IMG/VR virus record: IMGVR_UViG_3300025674_000053
Coordinates: 1 to 54,717 of that record
Length of the DNA stretch: 54,717 nt
From: a virus
Direction: 5' to 3' (one strand)
Part shown: positions 2,620 through 19,231 of the stretch, piece by piece
Position numbering within the stretch: the stretch's first letter is position 1
Layout of the letters: every line of letters begins with the position of its first letter
Made by a program: the position numbers and the translations under genes
The notes under the pieces: generated by a model
The model's database searches: none
The model's input: the letters and a program-made list of their open reading frames with translations, nothing else
Told to the model about the DNA's origin: nothing

Positions 2620-2847
2620 TCAGATTTTCTTTGCGATACGCAATCTTCTTTCGAGTTGAAATGCTTTTCGTTTCTCTAATTCTCGTGTTCTTTTCCTATA
2701 ATTGTTCATTTCATTTCGCTTTTGATTGGGTTTGATGTAATATTTTCTGTTTCTGCACTCCTCTTTTATTCCAGCATTGTCGCATTTCTTCCGAAAGATA
2801 CGCAGTGCTTTTTCGAAACTCATATTCTTAGAATCAACTCTTGGCAT
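2620..2847 (-). CDS. rpsU: Ribosomal protein bS21, phage-encoded
   Basis: A 75-aa, very basic protein starting at an ATG with a near-perfect AGGAGGT site 6 nt upstream; longer in-frame extensions upstream lack such a site. The sequence SFEKALRIFRKKCDNAGI, then CRNRKYYIKPNQKRNE and a long Arg/Lys-rich helical tail, matches bS21 (family pattern: ALRxFKR, then GI...RRREFYEKP..KRK). bS21 is a small-subunit protein near the anti-Shine-Dalgarno end of 16S rRNA and helps initiation. Phage-borne bS21 genes are known from aquatic phages and are thought to join host ribosomes. The start lies inside the upstream HTH gene (14-nt overlap), so both share the promoter at 3017-3055. Confidence 0.9.
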   Translation of the reverse strand: MPRVDSKNMSFEKALRIFRKKCDNAGIKEECRNRKYYIKPNQKRNEMNNYRKRTRELEKRKAFQLERRLRIAKKI

Positions 2848-3010
2848 CAGACCTCCTGTGAAAAGTCCATCCACGTTTCCGTAGATAGTATACTAATGAG
2901 GTGACAGATGACGCACTCCTGTCCAGTGTACGTGCGATATCTTCTGTTGGCTTTACATTGTAATGCCGTTTGATGTATTCTTTTTCTGCCATAGTCCATG
3001 TTTTTTTCAT
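2834..3010 (-). CDS. Small HTH DNA-binding protein upstream of bS21
   Basis: A 58-aa protein starting MKKTWTMAEKEYIKRHY. The frame is open further upstream through a TTG, but that codon lies within the promoter, so the ATG at 3010 is the start. It sits exactly 7 nt past the -10 box and no ribosome binding site precedes it: a leaderless gene. The core KPTEDIARTLDRSASSVTSLVYYLRKRGW is a homeodomain/SANT-like HTH of the type found in the other small HTH proteins here. As the first gene of a two-gene operon with bS21 it may be an autoregulator, which is inference. Confidence 0.7.
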   Translation of the reverse strand: MKKTWTMAEKEYIKRHYNVKPTEDIARTLDRSASSVTSLVYYLRKRGWTFHRRSDAKS

Positions 3011-3016
3011 ATCTAT

Positions 3017-3055
3017 ATTATACAAAAATTTTTGATTGCTGTCAAGAACTATTTT
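3017..3055 (-). promoter_or_regulatory. Promoter, minus strand, for HTH-bS21 (leaderless start)
   Basis: On the minus strand: AAAATAGTTC extension, TTGACA (3045-3040), 17-bp spacer, TATAAT (3022-3017). The ATG of the HTH gene begins 7 nt beyond the -10 box, where transcription would normally start. Confidence 0.88.
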
Positions 3056-3066
3056 TAGGTATGTTC

Positions 3067-3105
3067 TAGATTATTCTTGACTTATGGTGGGAAAGTTGCT
3101 ATAAT
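3067..3105 (+). promoter_or_regulatory. Promoter, plus strand, for the 48-aa gene (leaderless start)
   Basis: TTGACT at 3077-3082, 17-bp spacer, TATAAT at 3100-3105. The upstream extension is degenerate (ends TATTC). The ATG at 3112 is exactly 7 nt past the -10 box. It diverges from the minus-strand promoter at 3017-3055; the two -35 boxes are about 31 bp apart. Confidence 0.82.
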
Positions 3106-3111
3106 ATATCT

Positions 3112-3258
3112 ATGAATGAAAATGATATATACTATTTATTTTTTCTAGCGATGTGTGTACATCTTGCCTATTCGCTGGGAAAACAACTCGGAATAAGAAC
3201 CACGATAGACTATTTGGAACACAAAGGACTCATAGAGTTTGATGACTCTGAAAAATAG
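3112..3258 (+). CDS. Small, possibly membrane-anchored protein (48 aa), leaderless
   Basis: The ATG coincides with the predicted transcription start of the promoter at 3077-3105. The 48-residue product has an N-terminal hydrophobic stretch (IYYLFFLAMCVHLAYSLG) that could be one membrane helix, followed by a short soluble tail ending LEHKGLIEFDDSEK. I recall similar short proteins of pattern 'G-x-x-x-G-x-x-x-T-x-x-Y-L-E-x-x-G-x-I-E-F' in other phages, without known function. The stop TAG is the TAG of the next promoter's AAAATAGTTC element. Confidence 0.65.
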   Translation: MNENDIYYLFFLAMCVHLAYSLGKQLGIRTTIDYLEHKGLIEFDDSEK

Positions 3259-3290
3259 TTCTTGACATCAAGGTTAAATTTTGATATAAT
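3252..3290 (+). promoter_or_regulatory. Promoter for the Hsp20 / lysis operon
   Basis: AAAATAGTTC extension, TTGACA at 3262-3267, 17-bp spacer, TATAAT at 3285-3290. The predicted start is near 3297, giving a leader of about 75 nt that begins directly with a stem-loop. Confidence 0.9.
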
Positions 3291-3296
3291 TATTTT

Positions 3297-3349
3297 GTAA
3301 GTGATAAGTTTCACTTGCGTATTGGTGCATCTACCGTTTTTGGAGATGC
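3297..3349 (+). promoter_or_regulatory. Structured 5' leader of the Hsp20 gene (two tandem hairpins)
   Basis: The first stem pairs GTAAGTGA (3297-3304) with TCACTTGC (3311-3318) around a 6-nt loop, including one G-U pair, and begins at the predicted +1. The second pairs GCATCT (3327-3332) with AGATGC (3344-3349), with CC/GG closing a T-rich loop after a single unpaired A. The AAGGA site before the ATG at 3372 stays outside both stems. This could be a stabilising 5' hairpin or a thermosensor-like leader; neither is shown. Confidence 0.55.
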
Positions 3350-3371
3350 GAGTATTTACTGAAAAGGAATT

Positions 3372-3764
3372 ATGGAGAAAAATATGAGTATAGATTTAAG
3401 TAAATTTTGGCTTGGATTGGATATGCCTACACTACCGAGTTACACGGAGAGTGGATATCCGAGATATAACCTAATCGAAAGGCAAGGCGACTATCGTATA
3501 GAAGTTGCAGTACCAGGTTGGAAAAAAGATGAGTTGGAGATAGTCTTTGATAACAAAGAACTCCACATCAAGGGTAAAAAAGAACAGAAACTGGGAGCTG
3601 ACGAACAATTTGTTCATCAGGGGCTAAGTCTGAAATCTTTTGAACGAAGATTTATTCTAAACGCTGACCTACAAGTAGATGAAGTAAGTCTACAAGACGG
3701 ATTACTGACAATCCAACTAACACGAACTCCAGATTCCAAGAGAAAAATCTTGGAGATTAATTAA
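3372..3764 (+). CDS. Small heat shock protein, Hsp20/alpha-crystallin family
   Basis: A 130-aa protein with an alpha-crystallin domain spanning about residues 38-125. Visible family features are the strand YRIEVAVPGWKKDELEIVF, the ELHIKGKKE segment, the LSLKSFERRFILNADL block and the closing GLLTIQLTR strand. An internal ATG four codons later is an alternative start. Hsp20 proteins are ATP-independent holdases; phages of cyanobacteria and marine bacteria often carry one, proposed to protect or scaffold virion or host proteins. This gene leads the operon that contains lysis genes and has its own promoter and structured leader. Confidence 0.9.
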   Translation: MEKNMSIDLSKFWLGLDMPTLPSYTESGYPRYNLIERQGDYRIEVAVPGWKKDELEIVFDNKELHIKGKKEQKLGADEQFVHQGLSLKSFERRFILNADLQVDEVSLQDGLLTIQLTRTPDSKRKILEIN

Positions 3765-3892
3765 TGAAAGCATTAGCAAAAGTTCGTGATAGTATATGTG
3801 AGAACGGAGAGTTCTGCAACATGGTTGCAAATACAACTCTCGTATGTGCCTTTGGTGGCATCATGCTGAATAGCATTGTCGTTCTTTCATAA
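3764..3892 (+). CDS. Small putative membrane peptide (42 aa)
   Basis: The ATG overlaps the stop of the Hsp20 gene by one base (TAATG) and has GGAG about 8 nt upstream. The C-terminal half, MVANTTLVCAFGGIMLNSIVVLS, is a good single transmembrane helix, and the N-terminus is short and charged. It lies just before the endolysin gene, so a holin or pinholin-like role is possible from position alone. No family is recognised and the gene is too short for certainty. Confidence 0.5.
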   Translation: MKALAKVRDSICENGEFCNMVANTTLVCAFGGIMLNSIVVLS

Positions 3893-3909
3893 ACTGTCAG
3901 AATGTATTC

Positions 3910-3930
3910 GGGGACTCATTGCGAGTCCCC
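3910..3930 (+). promoter_or_regulatory. Stem-loop upstream of the endolysin gene
   Basis: A perfect 7-bp stem, GGGGACT / AGTCCCC, encloses a 7-nt loop. It lacks a T tract, so it is not a standard terminator. It ends 10 nt before AAGGAG, the ribosome binding site of the endolysin, and may be an mRNA processing or expression-tuning element. Confidence 0.5.
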
Positions 3931-3947
3931 AACCTATAAGGAGAAGT

Positions 3948-4391
3948 ATGAAAATTTCAATAGAAGGATTAAGTTTAATTAAGAAGTTCGAAGGACTAGA
4001 ACTAGAGGCATACAAGTGTGCAGCTGGTGTGTGGACTATCGGATATGGACATATCAAAGATGTCAAAGAAGGAGACAAAATATCAAAGGCTGAAGCAGAT
4101 GAGATGCTAGTACATGAGATTGAGGAGTACGAAAACTACGTGAACACAGCAGTAAACGTTCCACTATCTCAGAATCAATTCGATGCAATTGTGTCTTGGG
4201 TGTTCAATCTCGGTAATGGTAATCTTCGCGCTTCAACTATGTTGAAAGTCATCAACTCTGGCGACCATGCTGGAGTCCCCGCTCAAATCAAAAGGTGGAA
4301 CAAAGCAGGGGGTAAGGTCTTAGAAGGACTTATCCGAAGAAGAGAAGCAGAAGCTTTGTTATACGAAGGCAAAGATTGGACTCATGTCTGA
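3948..4391 (+). CDS. Endolysin, GH24 lysozyme (T4/P22 type)
   Basis: A 147-aa muramidase. The frame is open upstream to 3876, but the ATG at 3948 has AAGGAG 6 nt before it, and MKISIEGLSLIKKFEG is a typical GH24 N-terminus. Catalytic positions follow T4 lysozyme spacing: Glu15 (KKFEG), residue 24, and Thr30 (WTIGYGH). Residue 24 is Cys (AYKCAAGVWT) where T4 has Asp20; I recall this E-C-T arrangement in other phage endolysins. No signal peptide or SAR helix is seen from this start, so release should need a holin. It is followed by the spanin pair. Confidence 0.9.
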   Translation: MKISIEGLSLIKKFEGLELEAYKCAAGVWTIGYGHIKDVKEGDKISKAEADEMLVHEIEEYENYVNTAVNVPLSQNQFDAIVSWVFNLGNGNLRASTMLKVINSGDHAGVPAQIKRWNKAGGKVLEGLIRRREAEALLYEGKDWTHV

Positions 4392-4623
4392 GTTTAGAGA
4401 AAAATTAAAAGACTGGTGGAACTGGTTTAAGTCCCTGTTCATTACATATTATAAACTACAAGTTAGTTATAATCATACATGGGGAGACGCAGACGACCAA
4501 ACCTTTGTAGTCAAAAAATTCCACAAGAAACAAGAAAAGTTCCTCTCATTCACCACACAAGATGGAGAACTAGTAGAAATACGAGGTGCAGAAGGACTTA
4601 ACTACAGGATAACAGAACTATGA
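4384..4623 (+). CDS. Hypothetical protein within the lysis cassette
   Basis: A 79-aa protein overlapping the endolysin by 8 nt and the i-spanin by 4 nt (ATGA). The N-terminus (KLKDWWNWFKSLFITYYKLQ) is amphipathic and aromatic, consistent with membrane-surface attachment but not a clear transmembrane helix. The rest looks like a small beta-rich domain (TFVVKKFHKK, KFLSFTTQDGELVEIRGAEG). The position between endolysin and spanins suggests a lysis or lysis-timing role. Family not recognised. Confidence 0.6.
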   Translation: MSEFREKLKDWWNWFKSLFITYYKLQVSYNHTWGDADDQTFVVKKFHKKQEKFLSFTTQDGELVEIRGAEGLNYRITEL

Positions 4624-5006
4624 ACCAATTAACTATAGGTGGTTTAGTTGTACTAGGAGGTCTTTGTTACTTTTTATACAACCAAAACGAAACCTTAAAG
4701 GAAAACAACATAAAGTTAGAAAACGCAGTGCAAGCCCAGCAAGAGGCAATGGACACACTGAGAGAGTCTTACGAAAAACAAGGTAAGTCTCTAATGAATA
4801 TGTCTAGAAGAAACTCAGAAATAGAAGCTGAGAAAGCAGAGTATCTTGCAATATTTAGCAGACACAATTTAGATATGTTAGCATTGAAAAAGCCTGGACT
4901 CATGTCAAACAGGTTCAACAATGGTAGTGAAAAAGTGATGGAGGGAATGGAAGATGATACAGAAAAGTTATACGAGCTTACTGTGCCTAGCACTGACGAT
5001 AAGTAG
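4620..5006 (+). CDS. Rz: i-spanin (Rz-like inner-membrane lysis protein)
   Basis: A 128-aa protein with one N-terminal transmembrane segment (LTIGGLVVLGGLCYFLY, about residues 4-20) followed by a long charged coiled-coil region to about residue 90 (ETLKENNIKLENAVQAQQEA onwards). This is the Rz layout: type II inner-membrane protein with a periplasmic coiled coil. The downstream lipoprotein gene starts inside it in the +1 frame, the classic Rz/Rz1 overlap. With the o-spanin it would fuse inner and outer membranes in the last step of lysis, which implies a Gram-negative host. Confidence 0.8.
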   Translation: MNQLTIGGLVVLGGLCYFLYNQNETLKENNIKLENAVQAQQEAMDTLRESYEKQGKSLMNMSRRNSEIEAEKAEYLAIFSRHNLDMLALKKPGLMSNRFNNGSEKVMEGMEDDTEKLYELTVPSTDDK

Positions 5007-5448
5007 TTGTAGTTTACTTCCTACTAAGAAAGTAGAGATAGTATCTAAACCACTAGAAATCGATATAATGCAACCAGACTTACCCAGACCACTAGAACTT
5101 ACCGCACCTAAATGGTGGGTAGTATCAGAAGCAAGGATAGCAAATCCTTGTATCAAAAGATTACAAGACGATGGCAGTATGAAAAGACCAAAGAGCTGCA
5201 TCAAAGAAGATACCGAAAATCCAGATTGGCCAGAGGGTTACACCTACTTAGACCAGTTCTTAGATGAAATGAAAGAGCAGAACAATGGAGAAATATTGTT
5301 CGTAGGAACAACAATCGGAGATTACAAAGTTATGTCAGAAGATATGCAAGAACTTAAAAGGTATATCAATCAACTAGGAGAAGTAGTAATATATTATAGA
5401 GAAGTAACTGCTCCTAAAGCTCCAAGCGAGACAAAAAATGAGAAATGA
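4954..5448 (+). CDS. Rz1: o-spanin (Rz1-like outer-membrane lipoprotein)
   Basis: A 164-aa protein starting inside the i-spanin gene in another frame (53-nt overlap). The N-terminus MIQKSYTSLLCLALTISSC is a lipoprotein signal peptide with lipobox I-S-S-C and lipidated Cys19. A Pro-containing linker follows (IMQPDLPRPLELTAPKWW), as in o-spanins. It is longer than lambda Rz1 and carries an extra domain of about 100 residues with two cysteines, so it may be a spanin fused to another periplasmic domain. Gene order and lipobox make the call good. Confidence 0.77.
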   Translation: MIQKSYTSLLCLALTISSCSLLPTKKVEIVSKPLEIDIMQPDLPRPLELTAPKWWVVSEARIANPCIKRLQDDGSMKRPKSCIKEDTENPDWPEGYTYLDQFLDEMKEQNNGEILFVGTTIGDYKVMSEDMQELKRYINQLGEVVIYYREVTAPKAPSETKNEK

Positions 5449-6176
5449 AAAAGATTCTAATAAACAACAGGGGAGTACTAAAAGACTTAGATTTAATGGC
5501 ACAGCAAGTGCTAAGACATCCGAGTACATTTAGGTACACTCCACCACCAAATGTCAGCATGGCAAGACTTAAACAAGTTATGGATGCAGACGATGGAACA
5601 ATAGAAGAATGTAATGGAGTAGACTATTCAGGTAGGCACTTCCATACACATGAGTATAGATACTATCCAAGTAGAAAAACAGGCGTAAAAACATTTAGTA
5701 AACCAGAGCCATGCACAACTAAGTATAATTTCTTAGGTTGGTTAAGAAAAGCAACCAACAATAAAGCATGGGAAATGGACACTTGGGAAATACAACCAGA
5801 GTATCATGGATGGACTCCATGGCATAGTGGTAAAAACAAACCTATAAATTTTATAAGATTTGTATGGAATTCAGGTGTAGGAGTAACAAATTATGTGTCT
5901 GATGGTAAGCATTATAAATACAGAGATTCTAAGTACACAGGACAAAAGAATTGGAATTGTTTAGTAGGAAAACTAGACGGAAGACAGTACTTATCCGATA
6001 GAAATATTGGTAATCACAAGAGAGTCATTCTACAGTTTAGTTTACCTTCTAAGTACACAGCTACAATGGATGAATTTGTACACATACTGTCAGCAGGAAA
6101 TAAAGAAGAAGCTGCACCAGGAGTACCTACATCTAACTATGAACGTGACATGATGCTAGGTAAATGGACAGCTTAA
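5445..6176 (+). CDS. Hypothetical protein
   Basis: A 243-aa protein overlapping the o-spanin by ATGA. It is rich in aromatic and basic residues (HFHTHEYRYYPSRK, NKAWEMDTWEIQPEYHGW) and has a His-rich centre (HGWTPWHSG). The later part, NFIRFVWNSGVGVTNYV ... NHKRVILQFSLPSKY, looks like a beta-sandwich and is weakly reminiscent of double-stranded beta-helix oxygenases, but no clear HxD...H metal triad is present, so no enzyme is claimed. It may be a virion or host-interaction protein. Confidence 0.6.
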   Translation: MKKILINNRGVLKDLDLMAQQVLRHPSTFRYTPPPNVSMARLKQVMDADDGTIEECNGVDYSGRHFHTHEYRYYPSRKTGVKTFSKPEPCTTKYNFLGWLRKATNNKAWEMDTWEIQPEYHGWTPWHSGKNKPINFIRFVWNSGVGVTNYVSDGKHYKYRDSKYTGQKNWNCLVGKLDGRQYLSDRNIGNHKRVILQFSLPSKYTATMDEFVHILSAGNKEEAAPGVPTSNYERDMMLGKWTA

Positions 6177-6361
6177 AACAACTTTTAACTTTATTATTCT
6201 GGAGGAAAGATTTAAACTCCTCTGCTAAATGGTTTGATAGAAACCAACCAGCACAAGACAGATTCTGGGAGTTGGAAGATTGGAATGAAGAACTTGAGGA
6301 ACGAATAATAAAACTAGAAGATGAACTTAACAATATCAACAATAAAATCAATAGCAAGTAG
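6164..6361 (+). CDS. Small coiled-coil protein
   Basis: A 65-aa protein overlapping the end of the previous gene by 13 nt. Residues 35-62 (FWELEDWNEELEERIIKLEDEL, then NNINNKI) form an acidic coiled coil. The last five residues, KINSK, are identical to the last five of the holin-like gene at 8453-8824, and the two genes share 17 identical bases there. No function is recognised. Confidence 0.55.
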   Translation: MDSLKQLLTLLFWRKDLNSSAKWFDRNQPAQDRFWELEDWNEELEERIIKLEDELNNINNKINSK

Positions 6362-6836
6362 AAATGTATGGAGTGCTGACTGGGGGATGCCTTTTGGTGA
6401 CGCCATACTTTTTTACAAACATGACATAGGTCGTACCGACTATAATCACACTCATCCCGAGTGGAGAAACAATCAAAAAGAAATAATGAAAGAACTTGAC
6501 ATCAGCAATAAAGTGTCAGGTTACAGTAGGGTAATGAAGATTACTTTATATAGATTTACAGAACGAAGTTTCCATCAAGCAATGGGAAGAAAAGCTATTT
6601 ATATATCACTAGGCGAGAATATAATTCTAGGAAGTAAACGTCCTGGACATCACATCTATGGTGAAATGGACAAGGTAAATGCTACTCCTTCTTGGAAAAG
6701 TGATTTTTATGACAAGAAGAAGATATGGAACAGTTATGTAGAAGATGAGGAGTTTGAAGTAGTAGGTAATATGGCTACAACTATGGTATATCCCAAGACA
6801 GGCAATATGTTTATAGAGGTGTGGTATGAGGTATAA
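6321..6836 (+). CDS. Hypothetical protein
   Basis: A 171-aa protein whose ATG lies 41 nt inside the preceding coiled-coil gene. The conserved-looking part begins at residue 16 (VWSADWGMPFGDAILFYKHD), and the N-terminal 15 residues could be replaced by a later start. It contains paired His and Asp residues (HDIGRTDYNHTHPEW) but no pattern I can assign. It overlaps the glycosyltransferase downstream by 11 nt. Confidence 0.55.
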   Translation: MNLTISTIKSIASRNVWSADWGMPFGDAILFYKHDIGRTDYNHTHPEWRNNQKEIMKELDISNKVSGYSRVMKITLYRFTERSFHQAMGRKAIYISLGENIILGSKRPGHHIYGEMDKVNATPSWKSDFYDKKKIWNSYVEDEEFEVVGNMATTMVYPKTGNMFIEVWYEV

Positions 6837-7767
6837 AACAGATTCATTTACAGTTGATGATAAAGACAACGGAGCTTTAGGTCAATCAGAAAAAACATAC
6901 CAACCTATTCACGATGAATACGATAACTCGCACAAAGCTAATAGAGTAGACTCAAAGTATTTAGATGCTACGGGTAGTGATACTACAGTAATACAAGTAC
7001 CAAAATCCAAAGATACAAAAAGGATTCCTGTATTTGTAGGTGCAAGTGACCATCCATGTGATAAGATACAAGAAAAGATACTAGCGTATACACTACATAA
7101 AAATTCTAGTAGACCATTGGACATAACATTTCTAAGACCAAGTATGTTTCCTGGAGTATCTGCATTTGGTTGGGGTACACCTTTTACAGGATTGAGGTAT
7201 GTAATACCAAAACTTATGGGATTTAAGGGAAAAGCTATCTATATGGATATGGACATGATAAACTTTAGAGATATTAGTGATTTTTATGACATAAACTTAT
7301 ATGGTAGACCTTTTGGAATGGTATGGGACGCAAAGATGATGGCAGGAAACAAAAGGGGAAGCTATTGTGATAGTATGATGTTGATGGATTGTGCAAAGAC
7401 ACAAGAATTTTTTGACTGGAATGAAGTTCATTCTTGGGGTGCAGTAACACCAGGCTTTAAGTGGATATTTATGGAAAGACTAAGAGCTAGAGCAAATCCT
7501 AACAATGAAGTAGAGAATATGATGATAACAAGAATAGACTCTAGGTGGAACTGTTTTGATGGGTATATAACAGACAGTCTTTTGAATGAAGACGAAGAAC
7601 AGGACGAGTATAAATTAAATCAGATATTCCATTTACATTTAACAGCACTTAGCTATCAACCATGGCACAGTTCATATTTGATGAGTGCTAAAGCAACGCA
7701 TAAAAGAACAGACATCACAGATTATTGGTGGCAGTTAGTAGATGAGGTAAGAGCCCTTGAAATTTGA
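6826..7767 (+). CDS. Glycosyltransferase, GT-A fold, GT8-like
   Basis: A 313-aa protein. After a 65-residue polar N-terminus comes a GT-A/GT8-type core: RIPVFVGASDHPCDKIQEK as the first strand and helix, ITFLRPSMF, FGWGTPFTGLRYVIPKLM, then KAIYMDMDMINFRDISDFYD with the metal-binding DxD in the usual place. The C-terminal part has His residues (FHLHLTALSYQPWHSS) seen in related enzymes that transfer sugar from a nucleotide-sugar donor. The acceptor is unknown. Several other glycosyltransferases occur in the window. Confidence 0.75.
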   Translation: MRYKTDSFTVDDKDNGALGQSEKTYQPIHDEYDNSHKANRVDSKYLDATGSDTTVIQVPKSKDTKRIPVFVGASDHPCDKIQEKILAYTLHKNSSRPLDITFLRPSMFPGVSAFGWGTPFTGLRYVIPKLMGFKGKAIYMDMDMINFRDISDFYDINLYGRPFGMVWDAKMMAGNKRGSYCDSMMLMDCAKTQEFFDWNEVHSWGAVTPGFKWIFMERLRARANPNNEVENMMITRIDSRWNCFDGYITDSLLNEDEEQDEYKLNQIFHLHLTALSYQPWHSSYLMSAKATHKRTDITDYWWQLVDEVRALEI

Positions 7768-8443
7768 AGAGCTGCTAGGCCCAATGGGTGTTGATAGATT
7801 TTATGAACAATACAAGGGTAAAAAACATTTTATAATTAAATCAAAGACCAGATTTAAAGATTATTTTAGTTGGCACGAGTTCGATAACTACCTCAATCAA
7901 ACAAAGATTGGGCAATGGGATAGAACTCCACAGTTACAGGTAGTTGATGATAAGGGTGGCAAGTGGTGTAAAAAGAAATCCGAGCAACCAAAGACTAGAG
8001 AAGAACTACTTGAGATGTGGAAAAATGGACACAGTTTTATACTAACCATCAGTGAGTTTCTTAATAAACAAATGTGGCAACAATGCCAAGAGTTTGAGAA
8101 ACACTATGGAGTTGGGCAAGCGAATATTTATTGTAGTAATCAAAAGGATGCAAAAACATTTAGTATTCACGCTGACTCTACAGATAACTTTCTTTTTCAT
8201 GTAAGAGGAAAGATACGCTGGTACATATACAAAGAGTTTCATAACAAGGGCATGCCGTACAGACCAGACAGTACAACCTTGTTAGACAGTTTTGTTCTTG
8301 ACGAAGGTGATTTACTTTACATTCCGAAAGGGCAATTCCATAGGGTAGAAACCCTAAGTCCAAGAATATCAATCAGTTTTCACTTTCAAGAGAAAGGGGA
8401 TAAACCTTACAAGAGGAAAGATTGGTACGATTGGAAGCCGTAG
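7757..8443 (+). CDS. JmjC/cupin-type Fe(II)/2-oxoglutarate oxygenase
   Basis: A 228-aa protein read from a TTG that overlaps the glycosyltransferase stop. The jelly-roll core carries a metal triad: His138 and Asp140 in TFSIHADSTDNFLF, and His195 in LLYIPKGQFHRVETLSPRISISFHF. The spacing, the 'GD-L-L-Y-I-P-x-x-x-x-H' motif and the following Ser/Arg strand match the cupin-like JmjC group that includes bacterial ribosomal oxygenases (YcfD/RoxA type) and other protein or nucleotide hydroxylases. The substrate is not identifiable. It is next to a glycosyltransferase, which might suggest a glycan or protein target. Confidence 0.72.
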   Translation: MKFEELLGPMGVDRFYEQYKGKKHFIIKSKTRFKDYFSWHEFDNYLNQTKIGQWDRTPQLQVVDDKGGKWCKKKSEQPKTREELLEMWKNGHSFILTISEFLNKQMWQQCQEFEKHYGVGQANIYCSNQKDAKTFSIHADSTDNFLFHVRGKIRWYIYKEFHNKGMPYRPDSTTLLDSFVLDEGDLLYIPKGQFHRVETLSPRISISFHFQEKGDKPYKRKDWYDWKP

Positions 8444-8452
8444 GAGAATATT

Positions 8453-8824: not shown

Positions 8825-8826
8825 TC

Positions 8827-8931
8827 ATGAACTCGATGTGGAAACACTTCTGCCGATGGATAAAGGACGTAGTCTACGTGCCTGTCGGTGAGAAGTGTCC
8901 ATATTGTAAGAAATCAGAAAATAATACTTGA
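8827..8931 (+). CDS. Small Cys-pair protein (34 aa)
   Basis: A short frame starting 3 nt after the holin stop. The product is MNSMWKHFCRWIKDVVYVPV followed by a CPYC pair and ending SENNT. The CxxC pair plus an upstream Cys could bind zinc. The TGA stop is part of the -35 box TTGACA of the next promoter, and the coding region covers that promoter's A-rich upstream element. Its size makes the call tentative, but composition and tight spacing resemble a real gene. Confidence 0.5.
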   Translation: MNSMWKHFCRWIKDVVYVPVGEKCPYCKKSENNT

Positions 8932-8956
8932 CATATGGTTATAAATTTAGTATAAT
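8918..8956 (+). promoter_or_regulatory. Promoter for the 8963 operon (leaderless start)
   Basis: AAAATAATAC extension, TTGACA at 8928-8933, 17-bp spacer, TATAAT at 8951-8956. The ATG at 8963 is exactly 7 nt past the -10 box. Confidence 0.88.
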
Positions 8957-8962
8957 ATTCAT

Positions 8963-9121
8963 ATGAAAAATACAGAATACAAAGAACACAGAACTTGTCA
9001 GATGTGGAATGCTGAGACAAAGTCATTTGATGATTGGCATATCGGAGAGTGCGAACACTGCGGAGAAGAACTAGACCATCAGTCTGGCGAATGTCCAAAG
9101 TATAAGTGCTGGATAGCATGA
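8963..9121 (+). CDS. Small zinc-ribbon-like protein (52 aa), leaderless
   Basis: The ATG lies at the predicted transcription start with no room for a ribosome binding site. The product begins MKNTEYKEHRTC and continues with CEHCGEELDHQSGECPKYKC, i.e. Cys13, a CxxC pair and two further Cys. This suits a small zinc-binding fold. It ends in an ATGA overlap with the next gene. No family name can be given. Confidence 0.65.
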   Translation: MKNTEYKEHRTCQMWNAETKSFDDWHIGECEHCGEELDHQSGECPKYKCWIA

Positions 9122-9717
9122 ATCTATTTTATCTTGACGAAGACCTCGACAAGTGCGCTGAGTACCATGTCGACAAGCACATAGTAAAGATGCCTCTCGA
9201 GGCAGCACAACTCTTATGTACTGCGATATGGGTCGATGCAAAGCTAGGCTTTGTTCCTCGTGCATTGGACAAAGAAGAAAGAGAAGTTCTGAATAGTGAG
9301 AAAGCCAAGATTAAACATCTTCCTTTGGAAGAAAGACCACTCACACCATACCTGCCGATGATGTACAATCATCCTTGCACAATATGGGTTCGGTCTAGCT
9401 TGGATAACTTTGAGTGGACTCATTGTTATGCTAACGCACTCAACGATGAGTACCACTATCGTTATGGTAAACAACACAAGTCTATTGTAGAAGTAGTAAA
9501 TAAACTACCCGAACCAAAGAATCTACCTAGACTTGGATTCACAGAGTTCGGACTAGCAATGCCTGATGAACTGAAAGACTACGATAATCCTATACAGAGT
9601 TATCGTGACTACTATCATCTTGACAAAGCTACGTTCGCAGCATGGTCTCACAGAGACAAGCCTTACTGGTGGAATGAAGATTACGCCGACTATGAGGAAA
9701 GGATAACAGCAAAATGA
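9118..9717 (+). CDS. Conserved phage protein, pyrimidine-dimer glycosylase-like family (uncertain)
   Basis: A 199-aa protein starting in an ATGA overlap. The N-terminus NLFYLDEDLDKCAEYHVDKH and the following IVKMPLEAAQLLCTAIW are, as I recall, the signature of a widespread phage and giant-virus family (CAxYHxDKHVVKMxxEtAQLL), with a later NHPCTIWVRSSLDNFEW block. Members are sometimes annotated as pyrimidine dimer DNA glycosylase-like, but no activity is established to my knowledge. The conserved His/Lys/Glu cluster suggests an enzyme. Confidence 0.65.
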   Translation: MNLFYLDEDLDKCAEYHVDKHIVKMPLEAAQLLCTAIWVDAKLGFVPRALDKEEREVLNSEKAKIKHLPLEERPLTPYLPMMYNHPCTIWVRSSLDNFEWTHCYANALNDEYHYRYGKQHKSIVEVVNKLPEPKNLPRLGFTEFGLAMPDELKDYDNPIQSYRDYYHLDKATFAAWSHRDKPYWWNEDYADYEERITAK

Positions 9718-9938: not shown

Positions 9939-10138
9939 ATTTAGAACAATTAATTGCAGTAGCAGAGGAGAAACCACAAGTAATGGGAAAAGCAGAAGTT
10001 ATAAAACAAAATCTGAAAACACAACACGATAAAGTCAGTGCTGAGATTGGTATCCTCGAAAAACAATTAGCAGACAAGAAAGAGTATCTTGCAAAGATTG
10101 AGGGTGGAATAGATGTAGTTGATGAATTACTAAAATGA
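9935..10138 (+). CDS. Small coiled-coil protein
   Basis: A 67-aa protein that is almost wholly helical: residues 20-58 (EVIKQNLKTQHDKVSAEIGI, then LEKQLADKKEYLAKIEGG) have coiled-coil heptads. ATGA overlaps join it to both neighbours. Likely a structural or regulatory adaptor; function unknown. Confidence 0.65.
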   Translation: MNLEQLIAVAEEKPQVMGKAEVIKQNLKTQHDKVSAEIGILEKQLADKKEYLAKIEGGIDVVDELLK

Positions 10139-10812
10139 TAGTAATTGAGGACGATTTCTACCCAAATCCAGATGAGGTGCGTAAGAACGCACTAAATATG
10201 TTTTTTATGCCTGGAGTGAAAGGCAAGAAGGTTATGTTTGCAGGACAGAGGTCTCTTGGCAGTTTTTCTGCACAGAACAGACTATACTGTAAGAATAGAT
10301 TAGAGAAGTTAATAAACAGAAAGATAATACTATTCCCTACCAATAACAGTAACTGTAGCTTTACTCTAGGCAAAGACTTGCATGGACAAGACCATAAGTA
10401 TAGAAATTGGATTCATCAAGATAAAGGCGACCACGAAACAAAGAGAACAAAACATTTGAACTCTCAGATGTTTGCGGCTGTCTGTTATTTGACACCAAAT
10501 AATATAGCACCTTCTTTGAAGTATGGAACAGGACTGTTCACTAATGTAGAAACAGGAAAGAACTGGGCTACTGAAGGCAAAGGTTATGGTAAGTCCTTAA
10601 ATTTTTCAGGAGAGTGGCCAGGTGAGCCAGGGTATGACTTACACACTTACGTAGGTAATATGTATAATAGAATAGTAGTATACCCTGCTACTTACTGGCA
10701 TGCTCCTTACAATGCAGGTTTTGGACATGACAAGTACTCAGGAAGATTAATTCAAGTATTCTTTTTTCACGCAGAGAAAAGCGGAGTAGAAAGAGCATAT
10801 GAGCTTAATTAA
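10135..10812 (+). CDS. Fe(II)/2-oxoglutarate-dependent oxygenase-like protein (DUF6445 type)
   Basis: A 225-aa protein beginning MIVIEDDFYPNPDEVRKNAL, the usual opening of this oxygenase group. The metal triad is visible as His94 and Asp96 in RNWIHQDKGD and His189 in YPATYWHAP. Arg204 in SGRLIQVFFFH is well placed to bind 2-oxoglutarate. The AAVCYLTP and GTGLF segments between them are typical. These enzymes are common in marine phages with unknown substrates; related ones hydroxylate proteins or nucleotides. It overlaps the glycosyltransferase gene downstream by 14 nt. Confidence 0.75.
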   Translation: MIVIEDDFYPNPDEVRKNALNMFFMPGVKGKKVMFAGQRSLGSFSAQNRLYCKNRLEKLINRKIILFPTNNSNCSFTLGKDLHGQDHKYRNWIHQDKGDHETKRTKHLNSQMFAAVCYLTPNNIAPSLKYGTGLFTNVETGKNWATEGKGYGKSLNFSGEWPGEPGYDLHTYVGNMYNRIVVYPATYWHAPYNAGFGHDKYSGRLIQVFFFHAEKSGVERAYELN

Positions 10813-11806
10813 ATTAAATGGCAAAGGCATAAGAGACTTAGAGAAGAATGTACTGCACGAAGAAATAACTAAAAGCGAGAAAAATAAAGAGTGGTTAAAG
10901 TACCATTCAATAGTTCCAAAACTATGGGACAGACCTCGCTTACATTGTTATGCTTACTCTCTCTACGGAGATGAGAAGTACTTAACTTATCTTAGATACT
11001 CTATTATGAGTTTGCGTATGGTACATAATGATGCAAAAATTATAGTTTTTGCAGAAGAAAAGTTATGGGCAAAAGCAAGAGAAGAACTAAAACACTTAAT
11101 ATTTGAACACGATATAATATTTGTAAAAGGTGTTGGTGCTTGTTACAAGCAAGTTCTTGCGTGCCACTACATATTGAAAGACTACAAACACTGTACGATT
11201 TTAGATGCAGACCTTTTCTTTTTAAGCAAGAAGAACGATAGCTTTAGACAGTACTTGAATATTGTAAAAGATTTAATTAACAAGAATCCTAAGTCTTTTG
11301 TGTGGGCATTTGGTAGAAAAGAAACACCAAACGTAAACGATACTGTTATGTATAAGAGAGGTAGAGAGGAGACTCTTTGGCCTCACACTTATATCTGGGA
11401 CATGGAAGAAGAAATGGATATGGATATAGTACAACTTCTGGAAAAGGAGACACTATGGAACATCTCCTATATATTTTCTTTCAGTCCCAAGCAGTTGCAG
11501 TCTGATAAATACAAAGCATGGGCAATGTGGACTATGTTTAATAATAATATGTGTGATGAAACTTGCTGGTGGCTATGGAGTAAGAAGTATAATTGGAAGG
11601 CTTTTTACTGGAATAATGTAAATAAGAATCTTAGTATAGATTCTAAGACACACGAAGGCAAAGAGGTTCATCTATTTCAACCCATGTTTACAGACGAGTT
11701 AGAAAAGAAAATACATAGAAGATACCAAACTTTTATGGCAATACTAGAGATAGAAAATAAATACAAAGAGTTTATACATGAGCGATTACAACACGAACAA
11801 ATTTAA
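10799..11806 (+). CDS. Glycosyltransferase-like protein, GT-A fold
   Basis: A 335-aa protein. The core begins RLHCYAYSLYGDEKYLTYLR and proceeds through NDAKIIVFAEE to HCTILDADLFFL, which contains a DxD metal/nucleotide-sugar motif. The C-terminal half is Trp-rich (WAMWTMFNNNMCDETCWWLW) and ends with HLFQPMF, a His that could complete the metal site. Donor and acceptor are unknown. Four further glycosyltransferase genes are recognised at 6826, 31854, 41531 and 42841, besides the GT29-like gene at 43446. Confidence 0.65.
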   Translation: MSLIKLNGKGIRDLEKNVLHEEITKSEKNKEWLKYHSIVPKLWDRPRLHCYAYSLYGDEKYLTYLRYSIMSLRMVHNDAKIIVFAEEKLWAKAREELKHLIFEHDIIFVKGVGACYKQVLACHYILKDYKHCTILDADLFFLSKKNDSFRQYLNIVKDLINKNPKSFVWAFGRKETPNVNDTVMYKRGREETLWPHTYIWDMEEEMDMDIVQLLEKETLWNISYIFSFSPKQLQSDKYKAWAMWTMFNNNMCDETCWWLWSKKYNWKAFYWNNVNKNLSIDSKTHEGKEVHLFQPMFTDELEKKIHRRYQTFMAILEIENKYKEFIHERLQHEQI

Positions 11807-12095
11807 CGAGGACGAAGCACTCAAAACGCTTCAAACCTATATTGAATCCACATACGATGGACATTATAGTATGAATAAAATACAGTCTACTGAGTTCATA
11901 TTTGACGCAGGGCATGGAGAAGGTTTCTGTTTAGGAAACATAATAAAGTATGCACAGAGATATGGAAAGAAAGAAGGAAAGAACACAGCAGATTTATTAA
12001 AAATTTTACATTACGGAATTATTTTACTAGGGGCAACATATGAGAACGAAAAAACACGAAAATCTTACACAAGCAAATATAACCAAGGTAATTGA
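11778..12095 (+). CDS. DUF3310 family protein
   Basis: A 105-aa protein overlapping the previous gene by 29 nt. The signature HYSMNKIQSTEFIFDAGHGE, then GFCLGNIIKYAQRYGKKEG and ADLLKILHYGIILL, matches DUF3310, a common phage family (pattern QPIExI...F..GNaiKYi.R.gkK). The family is often found with nucleotide metabolism genes and has been called nucleotide kinase-like without proof. Here it precedes an HTH protein. Confidence 0.82.
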   Translation: MSDYNTNKFNEDEALKTLQTYIESTYDGHYSMNKIQSTEFIFDAGHGEGFCLGNIIKYAQRYGKKEGKNTADLLKILHYGIILLGATYENEKTRKSYTSKYNQGN

Positions 12096-12699
12096 GTTAT
12101 TAAACCCTACAGATGGTAGTAAGCCAATCACTAAGAAAGAAGCATGTAGTATACTTAACATAGCTTACAACACAACTAGATTGGGCAACATCATCGCAGA
12201 GTTTCATGAGATGCAAGAGTTCCGTGCAAGAAGAAAAGCACAGAATAGAGGCAAGGCGGCAACGCCACAAGAAATACAAACAACAGTACAAATGTACTTA
12301 GAAGGAGACAATGTCAGTGATATTGCCAAAGCACTATACAGGTCTCCAGCATTTGTAAAAGGTATCATTGATAGAATTGGTGTACCACAAAAATTGGCAA
12401 TGACGGACTATCAGGGGAGAAGAGAGGCTATGCTACCAGAACAATGTGTAGCAGATGAATTTGAACCAGAAGAAAGAGTTTGGGCAATTAGACAGAACTA
12501 TCCAGCGATAGTAAAGCGAGAGTTACAACCTGAACTTGCAGAAGAAAGAGGTTACAAATTATACCTTGTTGACACGATAGAGTGTACACAAGACGACTTA
12601 AAAAATACATACTTCCCACATTTGAGTCATGCAGGAAAGCAATACTGTTTACCAGCATATGATATGGGCAGTCTAAGACATTTACGAGAGTATATGTAA
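12040..12699 (+). CDS. HTH DNA-binding protein
   Basis: A 219-aa protein whose start lies 56 nt inside the DUF3310 gene. Two HTH segments are apparent: residues 29-55 (ITKKEACSILNIAYNTTRLG) and residues 75-115 (TPQEIQTTVQMYLEGDNVSD, then IAKALYRSPAFVKGIIDRIG). The second resembles resolvase/Hin-type HTHs. The C-terminal domain, EERVWAIRQNYPAIVKREL onward, is unassigned. I recall similar proteins in other marine phages annotated only as DNA-binding. No catalytic motif is seen. Confidence 0.65.
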   Translation: MRTKKHENLTQANITKVIELLNPTDGSKPITKKEACSILNIAYNTTRLGNIIAEFHEMQEFRARRKAQNRGKAATPQEIQTTVQMYLEGDNVSDIAKALYRSPAFVKGIIDRIGVPQKLAMTDYQGRREAMLPEQCVADEFEPEERVWAIRQNYPAIVKRELQPELAEERGYKLYLVDTIECTQDDLKNTYFPHLSHAGKQYCLPAYDMGSLRHLREYM

Positions 12700-12710
12700 A
12701 AAGGAAATAT

Positions 12711-12950
12711 ATGGAATATATAATTGCTATGTGGTTTTCTGCGTGGCTAATACAACTGTGGTCAATATTTAGACCAATTTGGTTACTAATACCAAAAGGC
12801 AATATGGTCATGAGACATAAATATATCACTGGAACTGTAATGGCAGTAATGGTATTCGTTTTAGTACCTTTACTATTATTACCAATGATGAGTGATACAC
12901 ATAGATTAAGATTTCAGAATAGTTTTCTGAGAGGATTATTAGGAGAATAA
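12711..12950 (+). CDS. Small membrane protein
   Basis: A 79-aa protein with AAAAAGGAA before the ATG. Two hydrophobic helices are visible: residues 3-27 (YIIAMWFSAWLIQLW, then IWLLIP) and 41-59 (TGTVMAVMVFVLVPLLLLPM), separated by a short basic loop. A second holin or antiholin-like role is conceivable, but it lies far from the lysis genes. Not recognised. Confidence 0.6.
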   Translation: MEYIIAMWFSAWLIQLWSIFRPIWLLIPKGNMVMRHKYITGTVMAVMVFVLVPLLLLPMMSDTHRLRFQNSFLRGLLGE

Positions 12951-12951
12951 T

Positions 12952-13164
12952 ATGGCATACATAGGCAACCCCTATTACGATGCACTTGAAGCAAAGTACA
13001 TAGCACAGATAAAAGAAGCACAAGCAGTATTGCAGACATACTTTCAAAACTCTGTAGGTATCGGAGAACACTCTGATTTATTACCTGAGTTTGATAAGTG
13101 GGTAGAGCAACTTGCAAGTGCAGATGAAAAGCTACAAGCATTGCGCAAGTTACTAAAAAGATGA
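12952..13164 (+). CDS. Small hypothetical protein
   Basis: A 70-aa mainly helical protein with TTAGGAG about 7 nt upstream of its ATG. It starts MAYIGNPYYDALEAKYIAQI and contains an amphipathic C-terminal helix (ASADEKLQALRKLLKR). It overlaps the next gene by ATGA. Function unknown. Confidence 0.6.
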   Translation: MAYIGNPYYDALEAKYIAQIKEAQAVLQTYFQNSVGIGEHSDLLPEFDKWVEQLASADEKLQALRKLLKR

Positions 13165-13517
13165 ATCAATCACTAATCTTAGAAGATGGTGATGTAAAGA
13201 TTGCTGTAGTACGAAACACATACGAAAGAGCTGTGTTTCACTATATGCATGGACTAGACTTTATAGGTTTTGATAACTGGTTAATGGAAGGCAACTTAAA
13301 AAATCAGTTTGAACTATATAAAGAATGTGACCACTTCATAGATTTTAATGATTGGCAGAATGAATTAAAGCTTTTAGACTTACATCCAAAAGATACTTCA
13401 GTTATGGAAGGTCAAGTGGGAATATCTGACTACAAGAACTGGTACACACTAAAGAGCCGACAAGTAATATTCCATCTGTATATGGATGAGATTAAACATT
13501 ACGGGTATAGCTACTAA
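13161..13517 (+). CDS. Hypothetical protein
   Basis: A 118-aa protein in an ATGA overlap with the preceding gene. It is rich in aromatic residues and Asp/Asn (FIGFDNWLMEGNLKNQFELY, FIDFNDWQNELKLLDLHP). No motif is recognised. It is the last gene of the unit started at 8963; its stop lies 10 nt before the -35 box of the next promoter. Confidence 0.6.
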   Translation: MNQSLILEDGDVKIAVVRNTYERAVFHYMHGLDFIGFDNWLMEGNLKNQFELYKECDHFIDFNDWQNELKLLDLHPKDTSVMEGQVGISDYKNWYTLKSRQVIFHLYMDEIKHYGYSY

Positions 13518-13556
13518 AAAATAGTTCTTGACTCATGCTTAAAATTCTTGTATAAT
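13518..13556 (+). promoter_or_regulatory. Promoter for the 13581 HTH gene
   Basis: AAAATAGTTC extension, TTGACT at 13528-13533, 17-bp spacer, TATAAT at 13551-13556. The predicted start is near 13563, leaving an 18-nt leader with AAGGAA before the ATG at 13581. Confidence 0.9.
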
Positions 13557-13580
13557 ATATTTATATTAAGGAAATAAGCA

Positions 13581-14051
13581 ATGAGTGACAGATTTTACCA
13601 ACAAATGCTAGACACCACAGGTTGGTGCCCTGGTTATCGTAATACTAGTACTATTGCCGAATACAAACAAAACTACACATTAAAAAGGAAAAGAAACATG
13701 GCGTGGACAGACGAAAGTAAAGAACAAGCAGTTGAGATGTATACTGCTGAAGAACCGACTCCAGACAATAGTATGGAGATTGTTAAGATGATTGCTGAAG
13801 AATTAGGCGAGAGCCCAAATGGTGTCAGAATGATTCTTACTAAAGCAGGAGTATATGTAAAGAAAACTCCAGCTACTAAATCTAGCAGTGGTGGAACTGG
13901 TGGTGGCAGAGTAAACAAAGCTGCTGCTCAAGACGAGTTAGCCAAAGCTATTAGTGATATGGGCGAAGAAGCAGATGATGCTATCATCAGCAAGCTAACA
14001 GGGAAAGCTGCTACATATTTCACAAACTTAATCAACAAACTTAACGATTAA
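13581..14051 (+). CDS. HTH DNA-binding protein, conserved in marine phages
   Basis: A 156-aa protein. Residues 1-39 are a basic leader (MSDRFYQQMLDTTGWCPGY start). A second ATG at codon 40 (MAWTDESKEQ) has AAAGGAAAAG upstream, so a short form may also be made. The body has an HTH signature, SMEIVKMIAEELGESPNGVR then MILTKAGVYVKK, matching the small HTH protein at 1601. A Ser/Gly linker and a helical C-terminal domain (GEEADDAIISKLTGKAATYF) follow. I recall near relatives in many marine phages; the role is unknown, with abundant transcription or nucleoid-type binding a guess. It stands alone between a promoter and a terminator. Confidence 0.78.
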   Translation: MSDRFYQQMLDTTGWCPGYRNTSTIAEYKQNYTLKRKRNMAWTDESKEQAVEMYTAEEPTPDNSMEIVKMIAEELGESPNGVRMILTKAGVYVKKTPATKSSSGGTGGGRVNKAAAQDELAKAISDMGEEADDAIISKLTGKAATYFTNLINKLND

Positions 14052-14060
14052 TACCCCTGA

Positions 14061-14096
14061 AAACATGGGGAGGGCAACCTCCCTGTGTATTTTTGT
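14061..14096 (+). terminator. Intrinsic terminator after the HTH gene
   Basis: GGGAGG (14068-14073), tetraloop GCAA, CCTCCC (14078-14083), flanked by ACA/TGT, then TGTATTTTTGT. A stable GNRA-capped stem with a T-rich tail. Confidence 0.8.
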
Positions 14097-14171
14097 ATCT
14101 AACAAAAGCACCTTACAGAGTAATACCATGATTGGACGGTAATAGATATTAACCTACCAACAAGGAAACGC

Positions 14172-14444
14172 ATGAAAAAAGACGATTTTGTTAAAAAACT
14201 TGATGACGCTGGCGATGCCATTGTTACATACAGAAGTCAAAATAGTCGCAGAATGAAATATAATGTTTGCACTAGTGACTTTAATAATAAGTATATACAA
14301 GAGAAAAAGAATCGAGCAAAACCAAATGATAGACAGGTTTTATTATTTTGCTGGGATACTGACTCCTATAGACTATTATCGCCTGAGAACGTGACTTCTA
14401 TCGTTCCTTTATCGAGGATATTGAAGAATGATAGAATTACATGA
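14172..14444 (+). CDS. Conserved phage hypothetical protein
   Basis: A 90-aa protein with AAGGAAACG before the ATG. The pattern VTYRSQNSRRMKYNVCTSDF, YIQEKKNRAKPN and QVLLFCWDTDSYRLLSPENV is familiar from a marine phage family I remember beside replication genes. It looks like a small beta-rich domain of unknown function. No promoter is seen between the terminator at 14061-14096 and this gene, so expression may come from read-through. It overlaps the next gene by 17 nt. Confidence 0.65.
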   Translation: MKKDDFVKKLDDAGDAIVTYRSQNSRRMKYNVCTSDFNNKYIQEKKNRAKPNDRQVLLFCWDTDSYRLLSPENVTSIVPLSRILKNDRIT

Positions 14445-14730
14445 GGCACCAGCTGTCTATGAAAAAGAAATAAGTTATAACGAAGCTAAACATGAAAAAG
14501 TATTCGTTATGATAAATACTTTTCGTGGAACAGAATATATACACATAAGAAAATATTATCAAGACTTTGACGAAGAATGGAAACCTACCAAGGACGGTAT
14601 TGCCATGCCTTTAGATTTTAATAATAGTCGTGGACTATTTGAGGCGTTAGTTGAGATTCTGTCAATATCAGAGGTCAAAGGAGTATTAGAAACTCATTTC
14701 AAAGAAGTTCTCGATAAGATATACCTATAG
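14428..14730 (+). CDS. PC4-like ssDNA-binding protein
   Basis: A 100-aa protein with a PC4 (transcriptional coactivator p15) C-terminal fold: the strand MINTFRGTEYIHIRKYYQDF, the 'WKPTKDGIAMPLDF' turn and a final helix (RGLFEALVEIL) match the family pattern yvdIReyy...g...PtkkGisL. PC4-like proteins bind single-stranded DNA as dimers and occur in some bacteria and phages. A role in replication, repair or promoter melting is possible. It directly precedes the DNA ligase promoter. Confidence 0.72.
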   Translation: MIELHEAPAVYEKEISYNEAKHEKVFVMINTFRGTEYIHIRKYYQDFDEEWKPTKDGIAMPLDFNNSRGLFEALVEILSISEVKGVLETHFKEVLDKIYL

Positions 14731-14736
14731 CATCAA

Positions 14737-14775
14737 AAAATAATACTTGACAAATCCTTAAAAATTCTGTATAAT
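14737..14775 (+). promoter_or_regulatory. Promoter for the ligase N-terminal half (leaderless start)
   Basis: AAAATAATAC extension, TTGACA at 14747-14752, 17-bp spacer, TATAAT at 14770-14775. The ATG at 14782 is exactly 7 nt past the -10 box. Confidence 0.9.
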
Positions 14776-14781
14776 ATTCAT

Positions 14782-15720
14782 ATGAATAAGACAGAATACC
14801 TAGAATTATGTAATCAAAAGTATGCAGAAGGTAATCCTATATTACCTGACGATGTATACGATAGACTCGTAGAGAATACCGAACTTGAAAATAAAGTTGG
14901 GTATGATGTAAGCGAGGCGAGACATAAACATCCTTACCCAATGTATTCATTACAGAAAGTCTTTATCGGAGAAGATAAAGAACCAGATTGGGATTCCAAA
15001 CAACCACACATAATGACTGCCAAGTTGGACGGTGCAGCTGTGTCTATAACTTATATAGATGGCGTACTGACACAGGCATTGACTCGTGGAGATGGTAAAG
15101 CAGGACTAGATATTACTGATAAAATTAAGACTTTAGTACCAAATAAAATATGGAGTAAAGGACTGAAACAGATTACTGGAGAAGTTGTTGCCCCTAAGAA
15201 AATACCAAATGCTAGAAATTATGCAAGTGGTGCTTTGAATCTAAAGGACTTAGAAGAATTTAAATCTCGTGATTTAACTTTTATTGCTTATGGTATTCAA
15301 CCAGCAATTTGTCCCGAGTGGACTGCTGATATGGGCATGGTAAAAGACATGGGATTTAATACTGTCACACTTAGTGATTGGAATGAATTTCCTCAGGACG
15401 GTAAAGTTGTAAGGGTCGACTCTAATAGATATTTTGACACATTAGGCCACACCTCACACCACCCTAGAGGAGCTTTCGCTCTAAAGACAAGACAGGCTGG
15501 AATAGTTACTCGACTCTTGGACGTTGAATGGAATGTCGGGAAATCAGGTGCTGTATCACCAGTTGCAATCTTAGAGCCTTGTGTCATAGGAGAGGCGACA
15601 GTAAGCAGAGCAACCCTACATAATATCGGATATATCGAAGCATTAGACTTAGAGATTGGATGTGATGTAGAGGTTATTCGTAGTGGAGAAATCATACCTA
15701 GAATTGTAAAACGAGTATGA
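14782..15720 (+). CDS. ligA: NAD-dependent DNA ligase, N-terminal half (adenylation + OB domains)
   Basis: A 312-aa protein. A short Ia-like domain (YAEGNPILPDDVYDRLV, then HPYPMYSLQKVF) precedes the nucleotidyltransferase domain with active-site motif K81-L-D-G (MTAKLDGAAVSITY). Later come TRGDGKAG, ITGEVVAPKK, ALKTRQAGIVTRLLDVEWNV and GATVSRATLHN-like GEATVSRATLHNIG, then the OB-fold end GCDVEVIRSGEIIPRIVKRV. It stops where the zinc finger of LigA should begin. Zinc-finger, HhH and BRCT domains are instead encoded at 19259-20017. Translation starts on a leaderless message from its own promoter. Confidence 0.92.
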   Translation: MNKTEYLELCNQKYAEGNPILPDDVYDRLVENTELENKVGYDVSEARHKHPYPMYSLQKVFIGEDKEPDWDSKQPHIMTAKLDGAAVSITYIDGVLTQALTRGDGKAGLDITDKIKTLVPNKIWSKGLKQITGEVVAPKKIPNARNYASGALNLKDLEEFKSRDLTFIAYGIQPAICPEWTADMGMVKDMGFNTVTLSDWNEFPQDGKVVRVDSNRYFDTLGHTSHHPRGAFALKTRQAGIVTRLLDVEWNVGKSGAVSPVAILEPCVIGEATVSRATLHNIGYIEALDLEIGCDVEVIRSGEIIPRIVKRV

Positions 15721-19206: not shown

Positions 19207-19231
19207 CAGATGCTTAAACTTTTTGTATAAT
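19193..19231 (+). promoter_or_regulatory. Promoter for the ligase C-terminal half
   Basis: AAAATAGTTC extension, TTGACA at 19203-19208, 17-bp spacer, TATAAT at 19226-19231. The predicted start is near 19238, leaving a 21-nt leader with GAGAGA before the ATG at 19259. Confidence 0.9.

Follow-up and report, generated by a model that had tools for sequence, protein, structure and literature searches.

Predicted leaderless and Shine-Dalgarno-led expression from one promoter type in a clade of uncultured T5-like phages

Introduction

Can a phage place its start codons on the transcription starts of its own promoters, and do so systematically? The question is raised by a viral DNA fragment of 54,717 nt (54.7 kb) in IMG/VR, IMGVR_UViG_3300025674_000053, the whole of which we call the window. 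Four of its genes, among them ligA for subunit A of an NAD-dependent DNA ligase, have their ATG 6 nt behind the TATAAT of a sigma-70-type promoter, so that the A of ATG is the seventh base. The modal sigma-70 transcription start lies 7 bp past the -10 element (PMC5730371), and the mRNAs of these genes are therefore predicted to have no leader. Other genes of the window follow the same type of promoter with leaders that contain Shine-Dalgarno (SD) sites. To our knowledge, most leaderless mRNAs described in phages belong to a small number of repressor genes, and for T5-like phages we found no leaderless messages in the open-access literature. Here, we compare the window with its relatives. With a probability of about 90%, the clade uses its near-consensus sigma-70 promoters for two modes of gene expression, leaderless and SD-led, with 5' ends predicted from promoter positions.

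Results

Ten strong promoters with the pattern TTGAC[AT]-17-TATAAT were found in the window (Table 1). The offset is defined as the number of nucleotides between the end of TATAAT and the ATG; at offset 6 the A of ATG is the seventh base after the hexamer, and leader lengths were computed with +1 at that base. The first-pass annotation had claimed this position for 3010 (minus), 3112, 8963 and 14782 (all plus), and a gap of exactly 6 nt is indeed present at each. The -35 box of all four is TTGACA or TTGACT, exactly 17 nt upstream. With a background of ~0.5% per offset, four of ten promoters at offset 6 corresponds to a P of about 1e-7. For the primase at 24435 a leader of 3-5 nt had been proposed, and the 10-nt gap gives a predicted leader of 4 nt. 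Leaders of 14-75 nt had been assigned to five further promoters; those of 75 (3372), 18 (13581), 21 (19259) and 14 nt (37121) stood, and the one of 21 nt at 32803 fell because the start was wrong, its ATG being replaced by ATA, GTA or TTA in relatives.

A comparison of the ATG-to-TATAAT distance in related genomes, which the same annotation had proposed, gave an invariant spacing for ligA. In a protein search with ligA, the 6-nt gap was found in 80 of 80 IMG/VR loci. These loci differ in promoter spacers, upstream genes and discriminators (ATTCAT, ATATCT, ATACAT, ATTCTT, ATACTT, ATATGT and others). Nine longer relative contigs were taken, and the promoters of eight were gone through one by one. 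These relatives carry promoters at the same loci with a locus-specific spacing: 6 for ligA, 6 or 7 for the 48-aa gene, 6-8 for the 52-aa gene, 10 for the primase (7 or 15 in other phages) and 24-25 for PHROG 1725. The exact spacing kept in relatives argues for a real expression mode, and predicted leaderless expression is very likely conserved and systematic in the clade.

Offsets were then counted in 298 non-redundant promoters (<75% identity) from the window, its relatives and 199 further loci, where a counted ATG had to open at least 35 codons. The 80 promoter-matched loci were picked by TATAATAT, a pattern that leaves the ATG position at offset 6 unconstrained. The ATG stands at offset 6 in 55 promoters, at 7 in 13, at 8 in five, at 5 in one and at 3-4 in none. 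The distribution is bimodal, with a sharp peak at 6, few cases at 9-19 and a broad second hump at 20-30 nt. The 55 cases at offset 6 have a P of about 1e-63 to 1e-66, the peak persists at redundancy cuts of 60% and 50%, and a flat histogram was obtained for 2,242 control TATAAT sites that lack a -35 box. Of the ATGs at offsets 5-8, 1, 74, 18 and 7% stand at the successive positions, a distribution indistinguishable by chi-square test (p 0.36) from the start-site frequencies that a Boltzmann model predicts for positions 6-9 (3, 70, 23 and 4%; PMC5730371). It is slightly tighter than the library-wide start-site values of 8, 55, 29 and 7% from the same study. Since the offset fractions match the start-site frequencies of RNA polymerase, the ATGs lie where the polymerase starts. 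When leadered promoters alone were read for +1, TA steps were common at offset 6 and at offset 8 alike. A weaker ATG peak at 6-8 is also seen in unrelated IMG/VR contigs with consensus promoters (L256-L330; 12 seen, about 2.5 expected), which suggests that leaderless phage genes are probably commoner than annotated.

The two kinds of start differ in sequence. An SD-like motif precedes 0 of 73 leaderless starts, and 1% of them reach -4 kcal/mol. Among leadered starts, 83% have an SD (n=102; the start was chosen by best SD, which gives a small bias), compared with 21% of random ATGs. Leaderless starts have A-rich codons 2-6 and 29% G+C, and their first 40 nt are weakly structured; in leadered starts the G+C content is 39% and the structure stronger. 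In addition, start codons at offsets 5-8 are almost exclusively ATG (61, with 0 GTG and 4 TTG), and both GTG and TTG do occur at 20-35.

In total, 169 distinct leaderless open reading frames (ORFs) fall into 22 gene families. The ratio of non-synonymous to synonymous substitution (dN/dS) in the eight largest families is 0.04-0.33, with few pairs in some, and in seven of the eight tested most or all members begin in the same alignment column. Many leaderless genes run 1-20 nt into the gene that follows, as ligA does by 4 nt (next gene at 15717), which suggests translational coupling. Some orthologues have changed mode. Those of PHROG 1725, the family of the window gene at 13581, mostly start at 21-28 nt, usually behind GGAA, GGAG or GAGG, and six start at 7-8 nt without an SD. 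Among PHROG 624 orthologues, nine distinct cases are leaderless and one is SD-led; the window copy follows the 52-aa ORF, and PHROG 624 itself is leaderless in phages without the 52-aa gene. The proposal of two initiation modes under one promoter type is thus strongly backed in comparison by the invariant spacing, the fit to start-site frequencies, the split in SD use, the near-exclusive AUG and the orthologues that switch mode.

Judged by its genes, the source phage is an uncultured, distant member of the T5-like phages, and its clade is mostly marine. The window has a T5-related gene set that includes a split NAD ligase (ligA at 14782, ligB at 19259), a D5-like regulator, primase, DNA polymerase, helicase and SbcC; the homologues of ligA/ligB, the D5-like regulator, primase, DNA polymerase and SbcC place it in the T5-like group (Demerecviridae). 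Identity to the closest cultured phages is at most ~48% (ligA) and 43% (polymerase), and the clade is therefore distant from them. No DNA-level match to cultured phages was found for an 8-kb stretch of the window. In a search for the host, ligA had no relative in GTDB genomes, and the ribosomal protein bS21 gave only weak matches, in Omnitrophota and one uncultured proteobacterium.

In the cultured phages T5_ev212, Vibrio D138, Gary, KEY and AhSzq-1, ligA is SD-led or adjoins or overlaps the preceding gene. Part of each genome of the first four was scanned for promoters; in these parts, no ATG at offset 6 was found and most promoters that precede genes carry SD leaders. A general T5 trait was rejected on these grounds, and the predicted dual mode, leaderless plus SD-led, is clade-wide in uncultured T5-like phages.

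Of 17 distinct ORFs in the helix-turn-helix (HTH) gene family, 16 have offset 6 and one has offset 7; dN/dS is about 0.33 (8 pairs). Ten distinct orthologues of the 48-aa gene start at offset 6 or 7 (dN/dS about 0.23), and 30 of the 52-aa gene at offsets 6-8 (about 0.21). A leaderless gene had been said to be cotranscribed with bS21, and bS21 does directly follow the HTH gene, overlapping its end by 14 nt, with the SD AGGAGG a few nucleotides 5' of its ATG. Relatives keep bS21, mostly with a clear SD, and PF01165 (Ribosomal_S21) is above cut-off in 6 of 6 contigs tested.

Table 1. Promoters and associated genes of the window
Feature	Position	Strand	Remarks
Phage bS21, 75 aa	2620..2847	-	PF01165, E 9e-13
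Small HTH protein, 58 aa, predicted leaderless	2834..3010	-	Offset 6; weak similarity to T5 D5-like regulators, PHROG 323
Sigma-70-type promoter TTGACA-17-TATAAT of the predicted leaderless HTH gene	3017..3045	-	Half of divergent pair
Promoter of the predicted leaderless 48-aa gene	3077..3105	+	
Small protein, 48 aa, predicted leaderless	3112..3258	+	Offset 6; possibly membrane-associated
Promoter for Hsp20 (3372-3764)	3262..3290	+	75-nt leader, SD AAGGA
Promoter of the predicted leaderless 52-aa gene	8928..8956	+	
Cys-rich protein, 52 aa, predicted leaderless	8963..9121	+	Ends ..YKCWIA; ATGA overlap with 9118
PHROG 624 / Pyr_excise-like gene	9118..9717	+	Coupled to 52-aa gene
Promoter for 13581 (PHROG 1725)	13528..13556	+	18-nt SD leader
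Promoter of predicted leaderless ligA	14747..14775	+	
ligA, NAD-dependent DNA ligase subunit A, 312 aa, predicted leaderless	14782..15720	+	Offset 6; PHROG 3359, E 4e-102
Promoter for ligB (19259-20017)	19203..19231	+	21-nt SD leader
Promoter for primase (24435-25274)	24396..24424	+	Predicted 4-nt leader
Promoter with -10 box abutting ATG 32776 of PHROG 4258 gene	32747..32775	+	ATG upstream of predicted +1
Promoter for glutaredoxin (37121-37348)	37072..37100	+	14-nt SD leader

Discussion

Our data suggest how the two modes may work. In operons of the first mode, such as those of ligA, HTH-bS21, the 48-aa and 52-aa genes and others, the first ATG lies on the modal transcription start, 7 bp past the -10 box. 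The mRNA, with its predicted 5' end, would begin with AUG, and ribosomes would initiate on this 5'-terminal AUG without an SD; by analogy with other systems, initiation might be of the 70S type. Genes further down such operons would be reached by an SD of their own or by overlapping stop and start codons. In the second mode, the start codon mostly lies 14-25 nt further downstream, behind an SD.

Three other explanations can be considered. A chance coincidence of ATG and promoter spacing has a vanishingly small probability and was rejected, given the flat control and the offset statistics (P of about 1e-7 for the window alone, and for the clade at most about 1e-63). Alternatively, the start codons may be misassigned, with a decoy AUG at the 5' end and the true starts further downstream behind ribosome binding sites; E. 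coli does have 5'-terminal AUGs before SD-led genes (PMC4965119). However, the next in-frame ATG of ligA falls within the conserved adenylation domain, and the N-terminal length of ligA is that of annotated SD-led starts in cultured T5-like phages. The common start column in seven of eight families and the purifying selection on all eight also speak against misassignment, which was rejected for ligA and the main families and which we regard as highly improbable. The first-pass annotation had named as contrary evidence a start codon that is conserved further downstream and has its own ribosome binding site; such a start was looked for and found for none of the four leaderless genes.

The remaining explanation is that genome compactness puts ATGs at the promoter, and that translation occurs from longer read-through transcripts begun upstream. 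Some genes do follow genes on the same strand, as ligA follows that at 14172-14730, and the PHROG 4258 gene seems to need read-through, its ATG preceding the predicted +1. Compaction, however, predicts neither the sharp peak at 6 with 0-1 cases at offsets 3-5 nor the start-site profile of the polymerase, and read-through mRNAs would also have no SD at these starts. In addition, the divergent pair of 3010 (minus) and 3112 (plus) has no close co-directional gene upstream. We consider this explanation improbable and favor start codons placed on the transcription start.

Several observations weigh against that preferred reading. The gene of PHROG 4258 (MLLFNWNKI..) has its ATG 0-2 nt past TATAAT in 18 distinct homologues from very divergent phages. 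In the window, 32803 was rejected as its start in favor of 32776, which is upstream of the predicted transcription start; from 32776 the profile matches from position 1 with an E of 3e-22, against 7.5e-18 for the shorter form. Codons 2-9 show synonymous changes among homologues, and this N-terminal part is therefore translated. With its ATG upstream of the predicted +1, the gene must depend on read-through transcripts or on a promoter that behaves differently, and a start codon near such a promoter is thus not always leaderless. A small leaderless-looking ORF follows a further set of promoters: at G002:225, G008:37725 and G001:57848 the promoter is followed by AAAAGAAAAAGGAAACCACATTTTCC, with an ATG at offset 6 in the first two phages and none in the third. 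The ORF at G002:225 was rejected as a gene, since a relative lacks its ATG and the sequence there resembles a hairpin; the AAAAGAAAAAGGAAACCACATTTTCC region is probably a hairpin leader RNA. Finally, same-strand upstream genes could give leadered read-through transcripts, although no SD stands before these ATGs.

By eye, the PHROG 4258 homologue of T5_ev212 (L251, about 25250-25310) seems to start with AUU behind the SD GAGGAG, and its annotated start lies further downstream.

Leaderless repressor mRNAs have been described for other phages: PY54 cI and cro (PMC4488713) and, in citations by PMC3160421 and PMC9031893, lambda cI. Like these, the genes described here have a strong promoter directly 5' of the start codon and an mRNA predicted to begin with AUG. 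In lambda and PY54 the genes are temperate-phage repressor genes with mapped 5' ends, whereas in these T5-like phages many operons, including that of DNA ligase, are concerned and the 5' ends are predicted. The leaderless genes include ligA and unrelated small genes with T5-like replication neighbors, and so differ from the lysogeny repressor of a temperate phage. TA-led bacterial genes and the -10 motifs adjoining ORFs in Deinococcus-Thermus also have a -10 box ~6-7 bp before the ORF in place of the ribosome binding site (PMC3160421, PMC12340547), as found here. Those genes are cellular and were defined solely by their -10 motif; unlike them, the promoters here were selected for a near-consensus -35, and most have a phage-specific upstream extension. 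In Lactococcus cremoris, leader lengths are bimodal and leaders of 4-14 nt were not found (PMC10986495). This gap resembles our sparse offsets, but it was measured, in a Gram-positive organism, whereas ours is predicted and includes the 4-nt leader of the primase.

These comparisons suggest that a whole T5-like clade uses leaderless mRNAs for several operons, with orthologues moving between modes. Orthologues that switch mode form a natural series in which to ask why a virus would abandon its ribosome binding site. Because ATG offsets match polymerase start sites, leaderless genes can also be sought from sequence alone, and, given the peak outside the clade, annotation may be missing many such genes in phages.

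The HTH-bS21 operon resembles an engineered leaderless bicistronic design in Corynebacterium, in which a leaderless first cistron feeds an SD-led second (PMC10367133); here the arrangement is natural, conserved and viral. Phage-encoded bS21 is a ribosomal protein that adjoins the anti-SD (PMC9723584, PMC6375957). In the freshwater cases (PMC9723584) its gene sits among structural genes, whereas here it has a strong SD and comes after the first gene of a leaderless operon. The leaderless genes might form a translational regulon, the phage switching ribosomes between 5'-AUG and SD-led initiation with its own bS21, an SD-led cistron of a leaderless operon, as part of the switch; we think this unlikely. 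In its promoters and SD use, the source phage is presumably unlike Bacteroidia. Bacteroidia ribosomes without bS21 prefer strong SD sequences (PMC9976891), which we take as a lead only.

The divergent pair at 3017-3105 has 31 bp between the -35 boxes, about three helical turns. Related contigs yielded 19 such pairs, and in 17 of them the distance is 30-32 bp; pairs lie at G001:62907, G002:5347, G003:28657, G008:32639, L091, L126, L137, L157, L160, L168, L174 and L175. The spacing is kept despite differing sequence and flanking genes, possibly because it lets two polymerases, or a regulator, interact. The leaderless genes at 8963 and 14782 have a common promoter flank, the discriminator ATTCAT and a common N-terminal stretch (ACAGAATAC..AGAA), a likeness that suggests a duplicated promoter-plus-start cassette.

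Most of the ten window promoters have AAAATAGTTC or AAAATAATAC as an upstream extension. Across the clade, AAAATAGTTC (or AAAATAATTC, AAAATAATAC) stands immediately 5' of TTGACA and is strongly conserved; it may be a phage-specific site, UP-like or for an activator. Strong promoters without a nearby downstream ORF occur in a cluster of very small transcripts (G001:56672 and 56824, G003:22624, G004:77992) and possibly produce small RNAs.

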